Of a DNA stretch of 29,138 bases, positions 1 through 29,138 are shown piece by piece (position 1 is the stretch's first letter; each line of letters begins with the position of its first letter). The stretch is from a virus. Under the pieces are notes generated by a model, which was not told the origin of the DNA, made no database searches, and was given only the letters and a program-made list of their open reading frames with translations. Both the position numbers and the translations under genes were made by a program. Location of the stretch: positions 1-29,138 of IMG/VR virus record IMGVR_UViG_3300030107_005327. One strand, written 5' to 3'.

Positions 1-135
1 ACGTCATTAACTGCCCAGCAGAGCCTGAAACCGGAGAGCCTGAAACCGGAGAGCCTGAAACCGGAGAGCCTGAAGAAGCGTTCTACAGAAGCCTCCGACA
101 CGTCAAAGAGTGGGAGCCTGAACCCGACGTGGGTC
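1..135. repeat. Terminal direct repeat, left copy
   Basis: Bases 1-74 are identical to 29022-29095. The last part of the repeat, ending in CCCGACGTGGGTC, also recurs at the right end. The two copies differ only in the number of 15-bp units and in a 48-base segment present here. This is the signature of a circular or circularly permuted genome assembled as a linear contig. Confidence 0.85.
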
Positions 136-281
136 GAGTGGCTAATGGGGTTCCCCGTAGGGTGGACAGACTTAGATGTCTCGGCAACGCCGTAGTGCCG
201 CAGGTGGCAGAGGTAGTGGGGAGGGTGATCGTTGATCTTGATCAAAGAATGCGCTTAGAGCTGGACGGTGGGCGGCAATAA
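1..281 (+). CDS. dcm: DNA cytosine-C5 methyltransferase, C-terminal part (gene split by the contig edge)
   Basis: This is the 3' end of the gene that starts at 28286; the reading frame enters at base 3 and stops at TAA 279-281. It encodes the end of the variable region (acidic EPETG repeats and a short linker) followed by the conserved motif IX/X block, visible as NGVPRRVDRLRCLGNAVVPQ around bases 142-201. In C5 methyltransferases that block closes the catalytic fold and binds S-adenosylmethionine. Joined through the terminal repeat, the whole gene is 1017 nt (338 aa) with the left-end version of the repeat, or 999 nt (332 aa) with the right-end version; both stay in frame. No endonuclease gene lies beside it, so it is probably an orphan methylase protecting phage DNA from host restriction. 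Confidence 0.9.
   Translation, partial: VINCPAEPETGEPETGEPETGEPEEAFYRSLRHVKEWEPEPDVGRVANGVPRRVDRLRCLGNAVVPQVAEVVGRVIVDLDQRMRLELDGGRQ
21..65 (+). repeat. 15-bp tandem repeat, three units, left-edge copy
   Basis: Three units of GAGCCTGAAACCGGA (21-35, 36-50, 51-65) encode EPETG. A partial unit at 66-74 leads into a 48-base segment (66-113) that is absent from the right-edge copy, and then into GAGCCTGAACCC. The repeat lies between motif VIII and motif IX of the methyltransferase. Confidence 0.9.
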
Positions 282-17347: not shown

Positions 17348-17574
17348 TTCTTCGCCTTCTTTGGTGCGGCCTTCTTGGCGGGTGCCTTCTTTGCCGGAGC
17401 TGGAGCTGGAGCTGGAGCTGCTGCCTTGACTGAAGCGCCCGCCGTTGCGATGTGCGTGGCTGCATCTTTCAACCATGCGTCACGGTTCCCTGGATCCGTC
17501 TTTGCTTTGCGGACTGCATACCCGGCAAGAGTAAGCGCCTGATCTGCGGCTGTGATTTGTTCTTTCGCTGTCAT
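17344..17574 (-). CDS. Small Ala/Pro/Lys-rich protein, 76 aa
   Basis: The N-terminal 50 residues form an Ala-rich helix (ITAADQALTLAGYAVRKAK...HIATAGASVKAA). Then comes an APAPAPAPA linker and a histone-H1-like basic tail (KKAPAKKAAPKKAKK). Such tails bind DNA or the negatively charged capsid interior; which of these applies here is unknown. The gene lies right after the 229-aa head gene and is translationally coupled to the 46-aa gene. The linker is encoded by a hexanucleotide repeat that could vary in length. Confidence 0.6.
   Translation of the reverse strand: MTAKEQITAADQALTLAGYAVRKAKTDPGNRDAWLKDAATHIATAGASVKAAAPAPAPAPAKKAPAKKAAPKKAKK
17396..17419 (-). repeat. Hexanucleotide repeat GGAGCT x4 (plus-strand reading)
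   Basis: Four perfect units at 17396-17401, 17402-17407, 17408-17413 and 17414-17419 encode Ala-Pro pairs in the linker of the 76-aa protein on the minus strand. Unit gain or loss would keep the frame. Confidence 0.9.
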
Positions 17575-26121: not shown

Positions 26122-26934
26122 ATGCCAGCAACCAAGAAGACAGATCATCCAGACTTTGCGTCGGCCATTGCTGCAGCTCAGGCGGACATGAGCAACGCCG
26201 TGAAGGACAGCAAAAACCCACACTTTAAAAAAACATACGCCGGTCTGCGTTCAATACGCGACATCGTGGTACCTGCATTTAACAAGCACGGAATAGCGGT
26301 GTTGCAGCCCGTAGATGGTGCCGATGGGTTCATGACGGGGCGCACGTTGCTAATGTGGAAGGACCAAACCCTTGAGATGGGCAATTGTACCCTGCCTATT
26401 GGTGGTGGCCGCAACGCCGCCCAAGATGTCGGAGCCGCTGCAACCTACCTTGCGCGGTATCAATTGCGCGGTGTCGGCGGCATAGCTGTAGAGGACGATG
26501 ACGGCGAAAGCTACAGAGGACCAAGGCCGCAGCAACGCCAGCAAACGGCACCAAGAAAAGCGCCTCCATTTGACGCTGCTATTGTCGCTTCTGATTACGC
26601 GCCTCCATTTGACGCTGCTATTGTCGCTTCTCATTACGCGCCGCCTGCTGCACCATCAAAACCACAACAAAAAAAACCTGTGCTGCAAGGCCCACCAGCA
26701 GTAGACGGCCCGAATTGCCCTAAATGCGGATCTGTTCTTAAAGTGAACATTAATTACCGAGCTTGGCTAAAGACGCTTTCAAACGAAGAACGAAAGCAAC
26801 AAAAGAAAAAGCCTGCGCTGCGTTGTAGTGACTGGAAAAAATGCGAATATACAAAATGGTCAACGGACGAAGCTCAACAGGCGATCGCGGATATTGCATC
26901 TAAGAAGGCATTTGATGATGGGTTGGACAAATGA
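26122..26934 (+). CDS. erf: ERF-family single-strand annealing protein with C-terminal zinc ribbon, 270 aa
   Basis: This recombinase anneals complementary single strands during replication and genome circularisation. The ERF core is clear: NPHFKKTYAGLRSIRDIV (residues 32-49), HGIAVLQPV, and GRNAAQDVGAAATYLARYQLRGVGGIAVEDDDGE (about 96-129). A Pro/Gln-rich linker contains a recent 13-residue duplication. The C-terminus carries CPKCGS and a later CSDWKKC pair, which could bind zinc and DNA. It is the first plus-strand gene, behind a near-consensus promoter and AGGAGG. With RusA on the other strand, it makes a recombination set. Confidence 0.9.
   Translation: MPATKKTDHPDFASAIAAAQADMSNAVKDSKNPHFKKTYAGLRSIRDIVVPAFNKHGIAVLQPVDGADGFMTGRTLLMWKDQTLEMGNCTLPIGGGRNAAQDVGAAATYLARYQLRGVGGIAVEDDDGESYRGPRPQQRQQTAPRKAPPFDAAIVASDYAPPFDAAIVASHYAPPAAPSKPQQKKPVLQGPPAVDGPNCPKCGSVLKVNINYRAWLKTLSNEERKQQKKKPALRCSDWKKCEYTKWSTDEAQQAIADIASKKAFDDGLDK
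26560..26637 (+). repeat. 39-bp tandem duplication in the ERF linker
   Basis: Two copies, 26560-26598 and 26599-26637, differ by one base (GAT versus CAT, Asp versus His). They encode APPFDAAIVASDY and APPFDAAIVASHY. The near-identity shows a recent duplication in the flexible linker. Confidence 0.95.
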
Positions 26935-27236: not shown

Positions 27237-27567
27237 TTACTCACTTTTGCGGAGATTGAAACAACGCGCGAAACACAAAGAGCAACAGAGAGCTCCAAAA
27301 ATAAAGCCAAATAGTGCGCGCTATTTTGTGCTTCTGTATGTCTGCACAGACCCGCCGGGCTCTTGGACGCAGAAAGACATGCTTATCGAGCTTCAAGACT
27401 TAGGCGTACCGAAGAGTACAGCTCAGTATGCGATAGACGGTCTCAACGCGCGCGGACTAATCAAGAAGAACAAAGTGAATCACCTGTCTACAACGCTCTG
27501 GCCTACCTACGCCGGGACACAGGCTATCAAACCGTTTCTACCTGAGAACGGGAGGGTTCAGCTGTGA
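27226..27567 (+). CDS. Winged-helix DNA-binding protein, 113 aa
   Basis: ATG 27226 has AGGAG upstream (27214-27219 region) and is preferred over the longer frame, which would lie inside the preceding gene. The start is basic (LLRRLKQRAKHKEQQRAPKIK). A winged helix follows (WTQKDMLIELQDLGVPKSTAQYAIDGLNARGLIKKNKV), with a wing-like basic strand. It could be a second transcription regulator or a replication accessory. Its TGA overlaps the next start as GTGA. No closer family can be named. Confidence 0.65.
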   Translation: MPVDYSLLRRLKQRAKHKEQQRAPKIKPNSARYFVLLYVCTDPPGSWTQKDMLIELQDLGVPKSTAQYAIDGLNARGLIKKNKVNHLSTTLWPTYAGTQAIKPFLPENGRVQL

Positions 27568-28289
27568 CACAGATACCACTATTGACGGTTCCCGAGCCAG
27601 CGCAGCCAAACAACGTGAAGCTCTACAACGGCAGTATTGATGATCTATTCAAGACTGTTAGAGACGCGCGAATGGTGTTTTGTGACCCTCCTTGGACGTA
27701 CAGCAACAGCGGAGACAAGACAAGAAGCGCAGCAAGCCACTATCCATGCCTGACAATGGCGGACATAGTTGGCCACGTACGGAAGGCCTACAGCTGTGCA
27801 GCTCCAGACGCTTACTTAGTATTGTGGGCAACCTTTCCGCTATTGGCCGAGTGGATGTCAGCAGCAACAGAAGACGCGATAGAATGGCGCTATGTCACTG
27901 GCGGCGCTTGGGCAAAGACGGGACCGCCTGGTAGCGGGTTTCATTGGAGAGGAAACGCGGAGCCGATTTTAATCTATCGCAAGGGTAGGCCTAAGCCGGT
28001 GAACACAAACCTTCTGCGGTCTGTGCACGTCACAGAGCAACACAGAGGCAGAGGCAGCAAGAGCGGAGAAGCGCTCGCGCACAGCGAGAAGCCTATTGCA
28101 TACCAGACAAATATGATTGAAGTATGGAGCTCGCCGGGCGATCTAATTTTGGACATATACGCGGGCCTATGTTCTGTTGGTCGGGCTACGGTTAGAGCTG
28201 GGAAAGGACGAAGGTACATAGGAGCTGAGATCGACCCCGACAGGTACAGGCAGGCGGTAGATCGCTTGGTGTTGGATGGTGGGCGGTGA
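27564..28289 (+). CDS. MT-A70-family adenine-N6 DNA methyltransferase, 241 aa
   Basis: The enzyme moves a methyl group from S-adenosylmethionine to adenine in DNA. The catalytic DPPW motif is at residues 41-44, and the cofactor motif LILDIYAGLCSVGRAT near the C-terminus; this DPPW-first order is normal for MT-A70 types. HSEKP near residue 173 is also typical. GTG 27564 overlaps the preceding stop as GTGA and has GGGAGG upstream. Its own stop overlaps the GTG of the cytosine methylase as GTGA. Two adjacent methylases without a nuclease suggest protection against host restriction or an epigenetic mark. Confidence 0.85.
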   Translation: MTQIPLLTVPEPAQPNNVKLYNGSIDDLFKTVRDARMVFCDPPWTYSNSGDKTRSAASHYPCLTMADIVGHVRKAYSCAAPDAYLVLWATFPLLAEWMSAATEDAIEWRYVTGGAWAKTGPPGSGFHWRGNAEPILIYRKGRPKPVNTNLLRSVHVTEQHRGRGSKSGEALAHSEKPIAYQTNMIEVWSSPGDLILDIYAGLCSVGRATVRAGKGRRYIGAEIDPDRYRQAVDRLVLDGGR

Positions 28290-29138
28290 GAATTGGATCA
28301 CTGTTTAGCGGAATTGGTGGGCTCGAGCTCGGATTAGAGCGCGCAATACCTGGAGCCCACACTGTATGGCAAGTAGAGCAAGACCCATACGCGCGAGCTG
28401 TGCTCGCTAAGCATTGGCCTGATGCGAGGAGATATGAAGATGTCAAAGAATTCAACCGCCAACAGTGGCTTTTTAAAAAGCCAGGACCCGTCGAGATTAT
28501 CTGTGGGGGCTACCCCTGTACAGGGCACTCGCTCGCAGGCAAAAGAAAGGGATTTGACGATCCCCGATCGGGACTGTGGACAGAATACACGAGAATCATT
28601 CGCGAGTTTAGGCCTCGATTCGTCGTGGTTGAAAACGTTTCCGCTCTTAGAAGCCGGGGAATCAGTCGAGTACTCGGAGACCTGGCCGCGTGCGGGTATG
28701 ATGCTGTCTGGGACTGTATACCGGCTCAAGCCGTCCGCGCCCATCATCGCAGGGACCGCATGTTCATTGTCGCATGGACCGAACACCACAGGTCAGTGGC
28801 CGACTCCAGCTGCAACGCTTCACAACTTGAACGAATCTCCAGAGATATTCCTGGATCGACAACAGAAGTGGGCGGAAGAGAAGGGGTATCACAACTCAAT
28901 CCCACTGACCGTAGCTGTAAAGATGTGGCCGACGCCAACTGCGATGCCTGCGGAGAATTATGGTGCAAAAAATGCCAGAGTCACTGGGCGCTGTGTGGAT
29001 GTCCAGGCGAGCACGAGGGAGACGTCATTAACTGCCCAGCAGAGCCTGAAACCGGAGAGCCTGAAACCGGAGAGCCTGAAACCGGAGAGCCTGAAACCGG
29101 AGAGCCTGAAACCGGAGAGCCTGAACCCGACGTGGGTC
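28286..29138 (+). CDS. dcm: DNA cytosine-C5 methyltransferase, N-terminal part (gene split by the contig edge)
   Basis: Motifs run in the standard order: FSGIGG (residues 7-12, cofactor motif I), GGYPCTGHS (motif IV with the catalytic Cys), VVVENV (motif VI) and HHRRDRMFIVA (motif VIII). After motif VIII the target-recognition segment holds a cysteine/histidine cluster (CDACGELWCKKC...CGCPGEHE) likely to bind zinc, followed by EPETG repeats. The reading frame leaves the window at 29138 and resumes through the terminal repeat in 1-281. GTG 28286 overlaps the adenine-methylase stop. Usual Dcm types have PCQ in motif IV; here it is PCT, with the catalytic cysteine kept. Confidence 0.9.
   Translation, partial: MRIGSLFSGIGGLELGLERAIPGAHTVWQVEQDPYARAVLAKHWPDARRYEDVKEFNRQQWLFKKPGPVEIICGGYPCTGHSLAGKRKGFDDPRSGLWTEYTRIIREFRPRFVVVENVSALRSRGISRVLGDLAACGYDAVWDCIPAQAVRAHHRRDRMFIVAWTEHHRSVADSSCNASQLERISRDIPGSTTEVGGREGVSQLNPTDRSCKDVADANCDACGELWCKKCQSHWALCGCPGEHEGDVINCPAEPETGEPETGEPETGEPETGEPETGEPEPDVG
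29022..29138. repeat. Terminal direct repeat, right copy, with five tandem 15-bp units
   Basis: This repeats the left terminus (1-135). Units of GAGCCTGAAACCGGA lie at 29042-29056, 29057-29071, 29072-29086, 29087-29101 and 29102-29116, against three in the left copy. The 48-base segment found at 66-113 is missing. The two versions differ by 18 bases, six codons. Confidence 0.9.

Follow-up and report, generated by a model that had tools for sequence, protein, structure and literature searches.

The 15-bp tandem repeat found at both ends of a phage record lies, with a probability that we put at roughly three in four, within a stretch that codes in two frames for a nested two-subunit C5-cytosine methyltransferase whose intact copy is the one at the start of the record. 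The record (IMG/VR virus record IMGVR_UViG_3300030107_005327) was analysed over its full 29,138 bp, and this whole stretch is called the window here. The frame-0 product, alpha, would carry the catalytic motifs I-VIII together with motif X, and the overlapping +1 frame, beta, would encode a second protein that has a motif-IX-like block and probably also holds the part for target recognition. From the sequence, we infer that beta is translated from the internal ATG at 28440, that it takes part in recognition, and that it assembles with alpha into one enzyme methylating phage DNA, as in M.EcoHK31I. The repeat is read as EPETG in alpha and as SLKPE in beta; since its 15-bp unit preserves both frames, slippage would alter the spacer in both proteins together.

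The methylase gene and its two terminal versions

The first-pass annotation had called the gene at the ends of the record a C5 methylase, and this is borne out by the matches of alpha to PF00145 (2.3e-40) and phrog_363 (1.1e-75) and by its motifs, which follow in the order FSGIGG (I), GGYPC (IV, with PC), ENV (VI) and HRRDR (VIII). The start codon of alpha is the GTG at 28286, where the gene overlaps the end of the N6/N4-type methylase gene by 4 nt, and alpha continues from 29138 into 1-281 only when the ends of the record are joined into a circle (Table 1). Motif X (LRCLGNAVVPQ) is also in frame 0; it is kept in relatives and predicted with high confidence to form a helix. The PF00145 match covers residues 2-169 and ends at 169. 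The motif IX and TRD that a C5-cytosine DNA methyltransferase (PF00145) has in one chain with the catalytic motifs are not seen in the alpha chain, an exception known also from natural two-polypeptide C5 methyltransferases. For the closest relative, Foldseek gave M.HhaI (catalytic part) as the best match of the alpha model, and AlphaFold (AF2) predicted motifs I-VIII and X confidently and frame-0 residues 198-253 as disordered (pLDDT <50).

In frame 0 the repeat is located between motif VIII and motif X. This is the segment where the target-recognition sequence usually sits, as had been pointed out in the first pass, but the assignment of target recognition to the EPETG frame itself finds no support, because the frame-0 stretch of the closest relative is predicted to be disordered and a frame-0 profile aligns with canonical C5 methylases over motifs I-VIII only. 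At the motif-IX position frame 0 is conserved too, and may be part of the fold as well. Downstream of the methylase, positions 1096-2058 encode a PAPS-reductase-domain protein (PF01507, 1.7e-21), possibly a DNA-modification or metabolic gene.

Table 1. Features of the nested methylase locus in the window.
Feature	Positions	Strand	Evidence
N6/N4-type DNA methylase, directly upstream of alpha	27564..28289	+	PF01555 2.3e-10
Alpha frame, C5-cytosine methyltransferase, motifs I-VIII then low-complexity segment	28286..29138	+	PF00145, phrog_363, Foldseek
Alpha 3' part: repeat end, 48-nt block, W-x-x-EP-VGRVANG, motif X (LGNAVVPQ), stop 279-281	1..281	+	ORF 3-281, joined frame
AGGAG, Shine-Dalgarno-like, inside alpha coding sequence	28427..28431	+	Sequence; 8 nt before ATG 28440
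Beta frame, overlapping ORF, putative second subunit (phrog_1008)	28440..29138	+	phrog_1008 match; shuffle, wobble and substitution tests
Beta 3' part: SLKPE repeat, motif-IX-like block SLNPTWVEWLMGFPVGWTDL, stop 193-195	1..195	+	ORF list, joined frame
15-bp tandem repeat, 5.9 copies, end copy	29041..29129	+	Tandem Repeats Finder
15-bp tandem repeat, 3.7 copies, start copy	20..74	+	Tandem Repeats Finder
39 nt unique to start copy; codes conserved W (alpha) and conserved G (beta)	75..113	+	

The two ends of the record carry copies of one gene segment, the start copy at 1-135 (135 nt) and the end copy at 29022-29138 (117 nt). Tandem Repeats Finder detected the same period-15 unit, AGAGCCTGAAACCGG, in both, with 100% match at the start and 98% match at the far end, and these repeats have the third-highest and the highest score in the window, respectively. 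The unequal unit numbers reported in the first pass were thus measured as 3.7 and 5.9 copies; the range 29022-29138 that it gave for the repeat corresponds to the whole terminal overlap, of which the end-copy repeat itself occupies 29041-29129. The copies share an exact prefix of 74 nt and an exact suffix of 22 nt, and their middles differ (39 nt in the start copy, 21 nt in the end copy), so that the start copy has a 48-nt block, made of the 39 unique nt plus GAGCCTGAA, in place of the two extra units (30 nt) of the end copy, with a net length difference of 18 nt. Joining the ends confirmed both the 48-base difference and the open gene described earlier, the C5 methylase being 1017 nt long with the start version and 999 nt with the end version. 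A second open frame through the repeat was absent from that description. Two further repeats were seen elsewhere in the window: a 39-bp direct repeat at 26560-26642 (2.1 copies, 97%) within an ERF-family gene (26122-26934), which codes a repeated PPFDAAIVASxYA peptide, and an exact GGAGCT hexamer repeat at 17396-17420 (4.2 copies).

Which of the two versions is intact? A W in alpha just before the EP-VGR segment and a G in beta two residues before LNP are each found in 148 of 152 relatives. The start copy has both, and the end copy, which is missing the block that bears them, lacks the two. We therefore take the start copy, with 3.7 units and the 48-nt block, to be the intact version. The end copy might have derived from it by block loss through recombination at the 9-nt GAGCCTGAA match together with a gain of two units, or might alternatively be an error at the contig end; either way, the sequence makes a defective derivative or an error more likely than a tuned variant.

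One of two possibilities raised in the first-pass annotation was that functional variants of different length coexist in the phage population and could adjust the choice of target or the length of the linker. The record does contain two versions with the frames open in both, and the spacer varies widely in length among relatives, from 56 to 183 residues, but the loss of both W and G from the end version speaks against the suggestion, which has no evidence in its favour from target choice. In addition, few relatives have a tandem repeat in this spacer (7 of 131, against 2 hits in an equal-length control stretch), and no second example came to light, two exact repeat units being present in none of the other contigs in a pattern search of 2.9 million viral contigs, a set that possibly leaves out near-identical records. 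Such tuning is thus quite improbable. The other possibility, a mis-resolved repeat, leads to a reading that is compatible with the two-subunit enzyme, and to which we give a little less than an even chance: the end copy arose as an artefact of assembly or amplification, and the phage has the start version only. Repeats of 15 bp are known to give rise to errors by slippage, the end version reaches just the contig tip, 13 unique nt past the junction, and the conserved residues are absent from it in both frames. On the other hand, the junction matches the start version over 9 exact nt, fewer than usual assembler k-mers, which would make a simple k-mer misjoin unlikely. Frame-shifting phase variation was ruled out, since the 15-bp unit and the 18-nt net difference are both multiples of 3, and a diversity-generating retroelement was dropped, since the difference consists of a repeat-length and block change rather than scattered A-site changes.

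Both overlapping frames are under selection

The +1 frame is open from upstream of 28422 to the stop codon at 193-195, with the longest ATG-started reading from 28422, and the protein from ATG 28440 has 258 or 252 aa, depending on the version. Beta was matched by phrog_1008 with an E value of 4e-24 (residues 11-261 of 264 against 23-284 of 329), and its counterparts were matched in all 72 relatives tested. Among 80 viral relatives gathered by the methylase frame only, every one has a +1 ORF, of 183-358 codons, and the +2 frame is broken; most of these +1 ORFs contain WPTP motifs, and nearly all finish with an LNPxWVEWLMGFPxGWT-like end. Conversely, at least 139 of 160 loci found through beta have an intact alpha. 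At four loci (L191, L201, L223 and L243) the +1 frame is intact and the methylase frame interrupted, and in L191 motif X is in the +1 frame too.

Three kinds of test were applied to this overlap. When synonymous codons were shuffled within each gene, keeping codon usage, the +1 ORF was longer than expected (p<0.05) in 73 of 79 genes, 52 of them at the test floor, and the same was true of the +2 control in 3 of 79. At four-fold-degenerate codons of the methylase, the third base is near random upstream of the overlap (~1.9 bits), falls to 0.1-0.4 bits at most motif-IX positions, and returns to ~1.8 bits after the beta stop. The ratio of third- to first-codon-position divergence changes likewise, from 2.85 upstream to 0.48 in motif IX and 2.13 downstream (124 pairs, with some sequences reused). 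Furthermore, substitutions in motif IX that change alpha and are silent in beta occur at 1.78 times expectation in 29 disjoint pairs and 2.5 times in four close pairs, and those that are silent in alpha and change beta at 0.6-0.8 times expectation. The pattern is reversed upstream of the overlap, where frame-0-silent changes are favoured (2.18 times). In the VIII-IX spacer, +1-silent changes are favoured in the four close pairs (1.61 vs 0.77), on which the bias there rests, as the divergent pairs are saturated and show little frame difference.

The shuffle, wobble and substitution tests together establish that the overlap is a genuine pair of coding frames, both under selection. Long alternative open frames do arise by chance in GC-rich genes, and the longest +1 ORF of the shuffled genes had a median of ~116 codons, so that conservation of the +1 frame could have followed simply from the codon bias of a conserved methylase gene. 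This was rejected and is given practically no weight: usage-preserving shuffles still fell short in 73 of 79 genes, and the lock on the wobble bases is confined to the overlap and relaxes past the beta stop.

Probable translation and role of the second frame

The preferred start of beta is probably ATG 28440, judging from the Shine-Dalgarno-like site before it. Among the 87 relatives with enough upstream room, 61 have a +1-frame start codon with such a site, against 41.5 expected from synonymous shuffles, and this excess favours internal initiation over frameshifting. Programmed ribosomal frameshifting would join the +1 ORF to alpha without making a separate protein, and it would fit a frame relation that is always +1 in the relatives examined as well as the placement of motifs IX and X in the +1 frame in some of them. 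It is nonetheless unlikely, for the +1 frame is conserved even upstream of motif VIII, a region that a frameshift product could do without, and mycobacteriophage annotators call two genes.

What might the second protein do? The conserved block LNPTWVEWLMGFPxGWT is in the +1 frame, where LNPTWVEWLMGFP of beta resembles canonical LSPRECFRLQGFP and aligns there, with an hhalign E value of 0.23 that is not significant; the same holds for mycobacteriophage beta against canonical motif IX (E 0.36, not significant). The beta block also resembles the canonical motif IX of phage KP15, LSPRECFRLQGFPDSF. With profile comparison short of significance, its identification as motif IX is based on the pattern, on the position beside motif X, and on the arrangement in Streptomyces phage Raleigh (1411-2970), in which frame 0 encodes the EWMMG block and motif X, in one chain with motifs I-VIII. 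Raleigh retains TWPTSG and LLPTP blocks in its +1 frame; it has the same gene with its frames naturally rearranged.

The mycobacteriophages Alma, Phanphagia and TelAviv offer another arrangement. Their alpha ends just behind motif VIII or a little further on, and their beta is a separate +1 ORF with SxTWPTSG, LLPTP and EWMMGxPxGWV followed by motif X (GNGVCPQQ); both ORFs are annotated as DNA methylase or methyltransferase. Mycobacteriophage beta and the beta family of the window are related with an hhalign E value of 4.8e-25, and the mycobacteriophage arrangement appears to be shared by Gordonia phage Jumbo and Arthrobacter phage PhluffyCoco. These comparisons suggest that beta is the motif-IX half of the enzyme and probably its target-recognition half too, although the AF2 confidence for beta is low (mean 57). 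It could instead be an unrelated overprinted protein outside the methylase, such as an anti-restriction factor, and several results lean that way: no Pfam or NCBIfam model matched beta, searches of the PDB by sequence and by Foldseek returned nothing for it, and its homology to motif IX is not significant by hhalign. We regard an unrelated protein as hardly likely, since beta almost always overlaps alpha, mycobacteriophage beta has the motif X that alpha lacks there, and the EWMMG block of Raleigh lies within the methylase chain.

The clade and its comparison with known methyltransferases

The clade comprises at least 544 confirmed viral stretches and at least 324 genome stretches; it is very widespread among phages, and the enzyme of the window is most likely a nested two-subunit C5 methylase. 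The name DNA methyltransferase is given to both products in databases, and only one of the pair is retained in some genome annotations: the annotation of Rctr197k has beta only, and that of MW202733 alpha only. If both proteins are needed, work on methylase cloning, specificity prediction or phage anti-restriction that relies on one ORF would be unsuccessful or misleading. In addition, with its strong wobble-base signal, the clade is a clear example of a long overlap between same-strand genes in DNA phages. More tentatively, it may represent a very large unrecognised phage C5 methylase clade with its target-recognition half in an overlapping frame, in which repeat slippage within the phage population alters both subunits together; as part of the same tentative proposal, the recognition modules and repeats of the clade would evolve under two codes. 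No description of such an overlap turned up in a search of the literature; methylases are mentioned in papers on Paenibacillus phages and on the prediction of frameshifts, in passages that do not describe the overlap.

Canonical single-chain C5 methylases such as M.HhaI and that of Klebsiella phage KP15 have motifs I-VIII and the fold in common with alpha, but unlike the window they carry the TRD, IX and X in one frame, and the canonical controls scanned (L265, L266 and L269) have no alternative ORF of the beta kind. The family phrog_1008, named DNA methyltransferase, matches beta, yet it is without catalytic methylase motifs; the name suits the partner gene and is silent on the overlap. Phase-variable methyltransferases with simple repeats likewise have a tandem repeat in a methylase gene, whereas the unit in the window is a multiple of 3 and its slippage switches off neither frame.

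Two polypeptides, as proposed for the window, make up M.AquI (CYCGRG) and the mycobacteriophage split methylases, and in the latter the second polypeptide has a motif-IX-like block and is +1 relative to the first. In both, this polypeptide carries motif X too, so IX and X stand together in the second chain, whereas beta of the window stops at the frame-0 motif X. With motif X in frame 0, that frame must stay open through the whole overlap.

Closest by description is M.EcoHK31I, a YGGCCR two-polypeptide C5 methyltransferase. Its small ORF lies inside the large one and is read in a different frame, just as beta is nested in alpha in the window. Among the sampled plasmid methylases no match to an M.EcoHK31I relative was obtained, one being canonical, one partial, one nested and one without a scan hit. 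The window differs in that no restriction partner was seen and in that beta has WPTP modules. The recognition domain of M.EcoHK31I has been predicted in alpha (PMC3404938), which makes the place of the recognition domain in the window enzyme uncertain. The larger polypeptide of M.EcoHK31I has motifs I-VIII and X, as does alpha, and the smaller one has motif IX (PMC3404938).
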